Source of the DNA: Alphaproteobacteria bacterium | GTDB lineage: Bacteria; Pseudomonadota; Alphaproteobacteria; ATCC43930; CGMCC-115725 | Length of the DNA: 64,000 nucleotides | Assembly: GCA_030041335.1 (NCBI GenBank) | Contig: JASHOB010000082.1 | Coordinates: 62,001 to 126,000, forward strand | Direction: 5' to 3' | Shown: positions 29,102 through 29,129 of the stretch, in pieces | Numbering within the stretch: the stretch's first letter is position 1 | Layout: every line of letters begins with the position of its first letter | Notes under the pieces: generated by a model | The model's input: the letters and a program-made list of their open reading frames with translations, nothing else | The model's database searches: none | Told to the model about the DNA's origin: nothing | Program-made: the position numbers and the translations under genes

Positions 29102-29129
29102 CCAAACTTGACCGTTCGATCAAGGTTGG
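29102..29129. promoter_or_regulatory. RutR-like palindrome between hydA and the aminotransferase
   Basis: The core TTGACCGTTCGATCAA (29108-29123) has seven-base arms with one mismatch and matches the E. coli RutR box TTGACCAnnTGGTCAA at 11 of 14 fixed positions. Outer arms CCAA and TTGG extend the symmetry to 28 bp. It lies in the 80-bp divergent gap and touches the aminotransferase ribosome binding site, a place where a repressor would block both genes. Confidence 0.6.

Follow-up and report, generated by a model that had tools for sequence, protein, structure and literature searches.

The palindrome between the divergent genes hydA and aptA most probably functions (at roughly 0.92, in our estimate) as the operator of the single RutR/PydR-type TetR repressor encoded by this alphaproteobacterial genome, a repressor predicted to control both the hydA/aptA pair and preTA. 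The relevant features of the window, i.e. the whole 64-kb stretch of DNA that was analysed, are the following:

27605-29059, minus strand: hydA, dihydropyrimidinase (TIGR02033, 608 bits against a cut-off of 393)
29060-29139, no strand: divergent hydA/aptA promoter region, 80 bp
29094-29123, minus strand: possible hydA promoter, conjectural, with TTGATC (29123-29118), an 18-nt spacer and TAGGCT (29099-29094)
29102-29129, no strand: extended imperfect 28-bp palindrome CCAAACTTGACCGTTCGATCAAGGTTGG, 11 of 14 pairs
29107-29124, no strand: predicted RutR-type operator, core CTTGACCGTTCGATCAAG, found in 6/6 hydA/aptA gaps of the family, with a copy between rutR and preT
29128-29132, plus strand: likely aptA Shine-Dalgarno GGGAG, as read from the sequence, touching the outer arm of the palindrome
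29140-30465, plus strand: aptA, AptA-type omega-aminotransferase (NF052567, 745 bits against a cut-off of 500), expected to be of the beta-alanine:pyruvate type

The 80-bp length that the initial annotation gave for the gap holds if hydA begins at its second ATG, at 29059; the ORF caller places the start at 29074, and the later position is favoured by the orthologs from five related genomes (G029, G030, G017, G018 and G038). The 16-mer core TTGACCGTTCGATCAA occupies exactly the position reported for it (29108-29123), with 6 of 8 pairs matching. The symmetry said to extend to 28 bp is indeed found at 29102-29129, but it is imperfect, and its outer arms are retained only within the genus. Taken alone, the symmetry of the 28-mer is weak evidence, because the window holds 13 stretches of 28 bp, this one included, with at least 11 of 14 pairs; we therefore dropped it as a stand-alone argument. 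The frequency of such repeats in a GC-rich window is also what might speak for the palindrome being a chance intergenic feature. Against this stand the sequence-specific conservation of the site across six genomes belonging to three genera and its computed expectation of about 6e-7 occurrences per 80-bp gap, which together leave chance a negligible likelihood. We accordingly consider conservation, rather than symmetry, to be the evidence that matters for reading the palindrome as an operator.

The search for hydA across the family yielded five relatives with sufficiently complete loci, two from the same genus (G029 and G030) and three from other genera (G017, G018 and G038). In all five, aptA is divergent from hydA with the 18-bp palindrome between them, so that, counting the window, the site is present in 6/6 gaps, which bears out the conservation that a comparison of orthologous gaps had been proposed to reveal. 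Read in the hydA/aptA orientation, the box CTTGACCGTTCGATCAAG is identical in the genome of the window (G000), G029 and G018, while G017 has CTTGACCGTTTGATCAAG, G030 CTTGACCAATCGATCAAG and G038 CTTGACCAAATGATCAAG. In an alignment of the six gaps no difference is seen in the arms, CTTGACC and GATCAAG; the centre is variable and most of the remaining gap is divergent. The TA step of the putative hydA promoter is likewise invariant in the six aligned sequences, and the -35 hexamer of this promoter may lie inside the operator; a sigma-70 promoter scan of the hydA/aptA gap gave no match at threshold. Beside the box of G030 (2102-2117 of locus L148, G030:C60) there is an extra partial half-site, GTTTGGTCGATCAAGGTTTGG, on the aptA side. 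A further neighbor of aptA is an MFS transporter gene (30462-31754 of the window, minus strand), which lies end to end with it; it is kept next to aptA in G030 (76% identity), and the transporter could belong to the pyrimidine pathway.

The distances between the box and the flanking genes bear on a different reading. The initial annotation suggested that the site may also act at the RNA level; on this reading the inverted repeat would fold into a hairpin in the leader of the aptA transcript and cover the ribosome binding site. The GGGAG ahead of the aptA start is indeed touched by the palindrome's outer arm, and a stem of about -9 kcal/mol is possible. However, the box-to-aptA distance varies widely among the six genomes (15, 19, 29, 43, 43 and 58 nt), as opposed to a steady 40-50 nt from the box to hydA; the spacing between GGGAG and the box is not conserved among the relatives; and folding z-scores of 0.64 and -1.23 are unremarkable. 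On spacing and folding we discarded RNA-level control of aptA, which appears very improbable, in favor of a DNA operator.

The genome encodes exactly one protein with the RutR C-terminal domain (PF08362, 166.7 bits against a cut-off of 25), so the homolog whose presence the initial annotation had proposed to check exists, and in a single copy. Its gene is divided between the ends of two contigs, C8 (at 9176) and C232 (at 7296); these share 197 identical overlapping bases, indicating that they join, and the product of the rejoined gene is 220 aa long. With the contigs joined, rutR is followed downstream by genes resembling those for alanine dehydrogenase and an ammonium transporter. The best relatives in the PDB are the E. 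coli RutR structures 6z1b and 3loc (E 1e-47), and 84 of 187 aligned positions (45%) are identical to E. coli RutR. The residues of the uracil site of RutR, W77, Y97, W167, Q171 and Q179 (PMC10891134), are all retained, and are identical also in the proteins of four relatives. So is K52 in the helix, corresponding to a lysine in the DNA-binding domain that, when acetylated, no longer allows binding to DNA (PMC10891134). Though TIGR03613 and NF011584 are its top NCBIfam matches, the protein scores below both equivalog cut-offs (211.6 against 368 and 182.7 against 230, respectively), and hence we call it RutR-like, of the RutR/PydR type.

The rutR gene is divergent from preT-preA, which encode the NAD-dependent dihydropyrimidine dehydrogenase (PreA: NF006183, 703 bits) and are followed by ABC transporter genes. 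The gap between rutR and preT contains a second box, CTTGACCAATTGTTCAAG; thus, the motif is found upstream of the dihydropyrimidine dehydrogenase genes, where the initial annotation had suggested looking for it. In the genome of the window the hydA/aptA pair is apart from rutR/preTA, on different contigs, each with its own box. In G038 a single stretch runs hydA, box, aptA, rutR, box, preT, preA, and in G017 rutR is the immediate neighbor of aptA. The rutR/preT gap of G017 (L145, G017:C102, 5465-5499) has two adjacent boxes, and a similar pair is seen in locus L043. Together, the second box and the contiguity of these genes in relatives lend good support to the earlier proposal that one regulator ties hydA and aptA to dehydrogenase genes located elsewhere. 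That annotation had also named the absence of a RutR-like regulator, or a palindrome not conserved in relatives, as grounds for abandoning its proposal; both points were examined, and the regulator is present and the palindrome conserved.

The particular sequence of the motif is rare. The 18-mer CTTGANCRNNYGNTCAAG is expected about 0.05 times in this genome of 5.17 Mb and 63% GC, as against three perfect occurrences: one in the hydA/aptA gap, one in the rutR/preT gap and one at an apparently coding site. The last of these (G000:C233:45059-45076) is close to grpE, seemingly within a short ORF, and we rejected it as a RutR target, taking it to be a chance match; the same was done with a site at C187:40344, which falls within a coding frame. 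Across seven genomes 8/9 perfect matches to the 18-mer are in gaps beside pyrimidine genes, though some of these sites had themselves served to refine the pattern used in the search, so that the independent matches are limited to the boxes in the rutR/preT gaps of G030, G038 and G017. These were found after the pattern had been fixed, that of G030 being perfect and those of G038 and G017 having one mismatch each. Of 22 near-complete genomes of the family, three have hydA, and all three are among the four that have a strong rutR match (hypergeometric p 0.003, uncorrected for relatedness); a fifth genome, G015, has just a weak partial rutR match of 34 bits.

Many TetR and GntR proteins bind palindromes resembling TTGA...TCAA, and another dimeric repressor of either family preferring a similar site might thus be the one that recognizes the palindrome. 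The E. coli RutR box is TTGACCA-n2-TGGTCAA, and the hydA/aptA box agrees with it at 11 of 14 defined positions and departs from it at three, which also favors such a repressor to a degree. What argues against it is the presence of the same motif at the promoter of rutR itself, together with the dehydrogenase genes, as well as the contiguity of rutR with hydA/aptA in relatives; we regard it as unlikely, albeit less so than a hairpin or chance. The box fits a form typical of the lineage, CTTGAYCR, derived from 24 half-sites, and its departure from the E. coli consensus is a lineage trend.

The above findings lead us to infer a simple mechanism centered on RutR. A RutR dimer bound to 29107-29124 would block the divergent promoters of hydA and aptA, whose exact positions are predictions, and RutR would also occupy the corresponding box in the rutR/preT gap. 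An increase in uracil, the likely effector, would release RutR and allow the reductive pathway to be expressed. PreTA would then generate dihydrouracil and HydA N-carbamoyl-beta-alanine, with AptA removing beta-alanine at the end of the pathway. The initial annotation had proposed looking for the motif at beta-ureidopropionase as well, but the one strong ureidopropionase-type gene of the genome (contig C78) yielded no box. The neighbor of this gene looks, from its sequence, to be of the deacetylase type and possibly an allantoinase, and the ureidopropionase-type gene may therefore serve purine breakdown.

Beyond the family, boxes are found upstream of hydA and in the rutR/preT gap at other alphaproteobacterial loci, one of them from Reyranella (L028), and most of these boxes follow the E. 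coli form. Upstream regions scoring at least 11/12 make up 9/78 of those of hydA as against 37/3812 control windows, the hydA set being a mixture of lineages with and without control by the box. The eighth base of CTTGACCA is G in 15/24 half-sites from the family of the window genome, compared with 7/34 in others. Since both forms of the box occur in one genome under one RutR, this change of the inner pair from A.T to G.C is a matter of tolerance or drift and not of a new specificity. The sister genome G037 offers a further variation: rutR (5040-5687, minus strand, of L151, G037:C8:30000-42000) comes after a URC-like uracil cluster coding for a uracil phosphoribosyltransferase (PF14681), a DUF1688 protein (PF07958) and a GTP cyclohydrolase II-like protein (PF12471/PF00925), and a box, TCTGACCGTTTGGTCAAG, is present at 8824-8839 of L151 in a divergent gap, ahead of a hydantoinase B gene. 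Searches for hydA and preTA in this genome gave no match. We lean slightly towards the view that a single uracil sensor of the RutR type has come to serve different routes of uracil degradation within the family, the reductive one (preTA and hydA/aptA) where hydA is present and the URC-type cluster in G037, while the inner pair of its operator drifted from A.T towards G.C.

Annotation by itself would not connect hydA and aptA with preTA and rutR, as the two groups lie on different contigs here; these results provide both genes with a regulator, a likely effector and a pathway. The predicted control of aptA by the repressor that also acts on the first steps of the pathway further supports beta-alanine as the physiological substrate of AptA in this organism. 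The RutR/PydR-type operator is a well-supported, ordinary example of known control, of a kind that is well understood and was previously undescribed in this bacterium; for RutR in general it adds one more example and no new principle.

Like E. coli RutR, the regulator is a TetR protein that combines the PF08362 ligand domain with conserved uracil-contact residues, and its sites resemble the E. coli boxes at rutR/rutAG and carAB in being TTGACC-type palindromes of about 16 bp, one of them beside the gene for the regulator itself. It differs in its targets: E. coli RutR controls the oxidative Rut pathway and carAB, whereas here these are hydA, aptA and preTA of the reductive pathway. The inner pair of the box is also often G.C rather than the A.T of E. 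coli. In its targets the system resembles that of P. putida, with a RutR-like repressor reported to control the reductive pyrimidine pathway (a 2012 study, as cited in PMC7332683). In the RegPrecise reconstruction across Proteobacteria (PMC5343134), RutR is reported to regulate pyrimidine catabolism in 68 genomes from 13 taxa, and its motif shows taxon-specific substitutions; the system described above shares both of these features, namely a regulator of pyrimidine catabolism and a motif altered in a taxon-specific manner.
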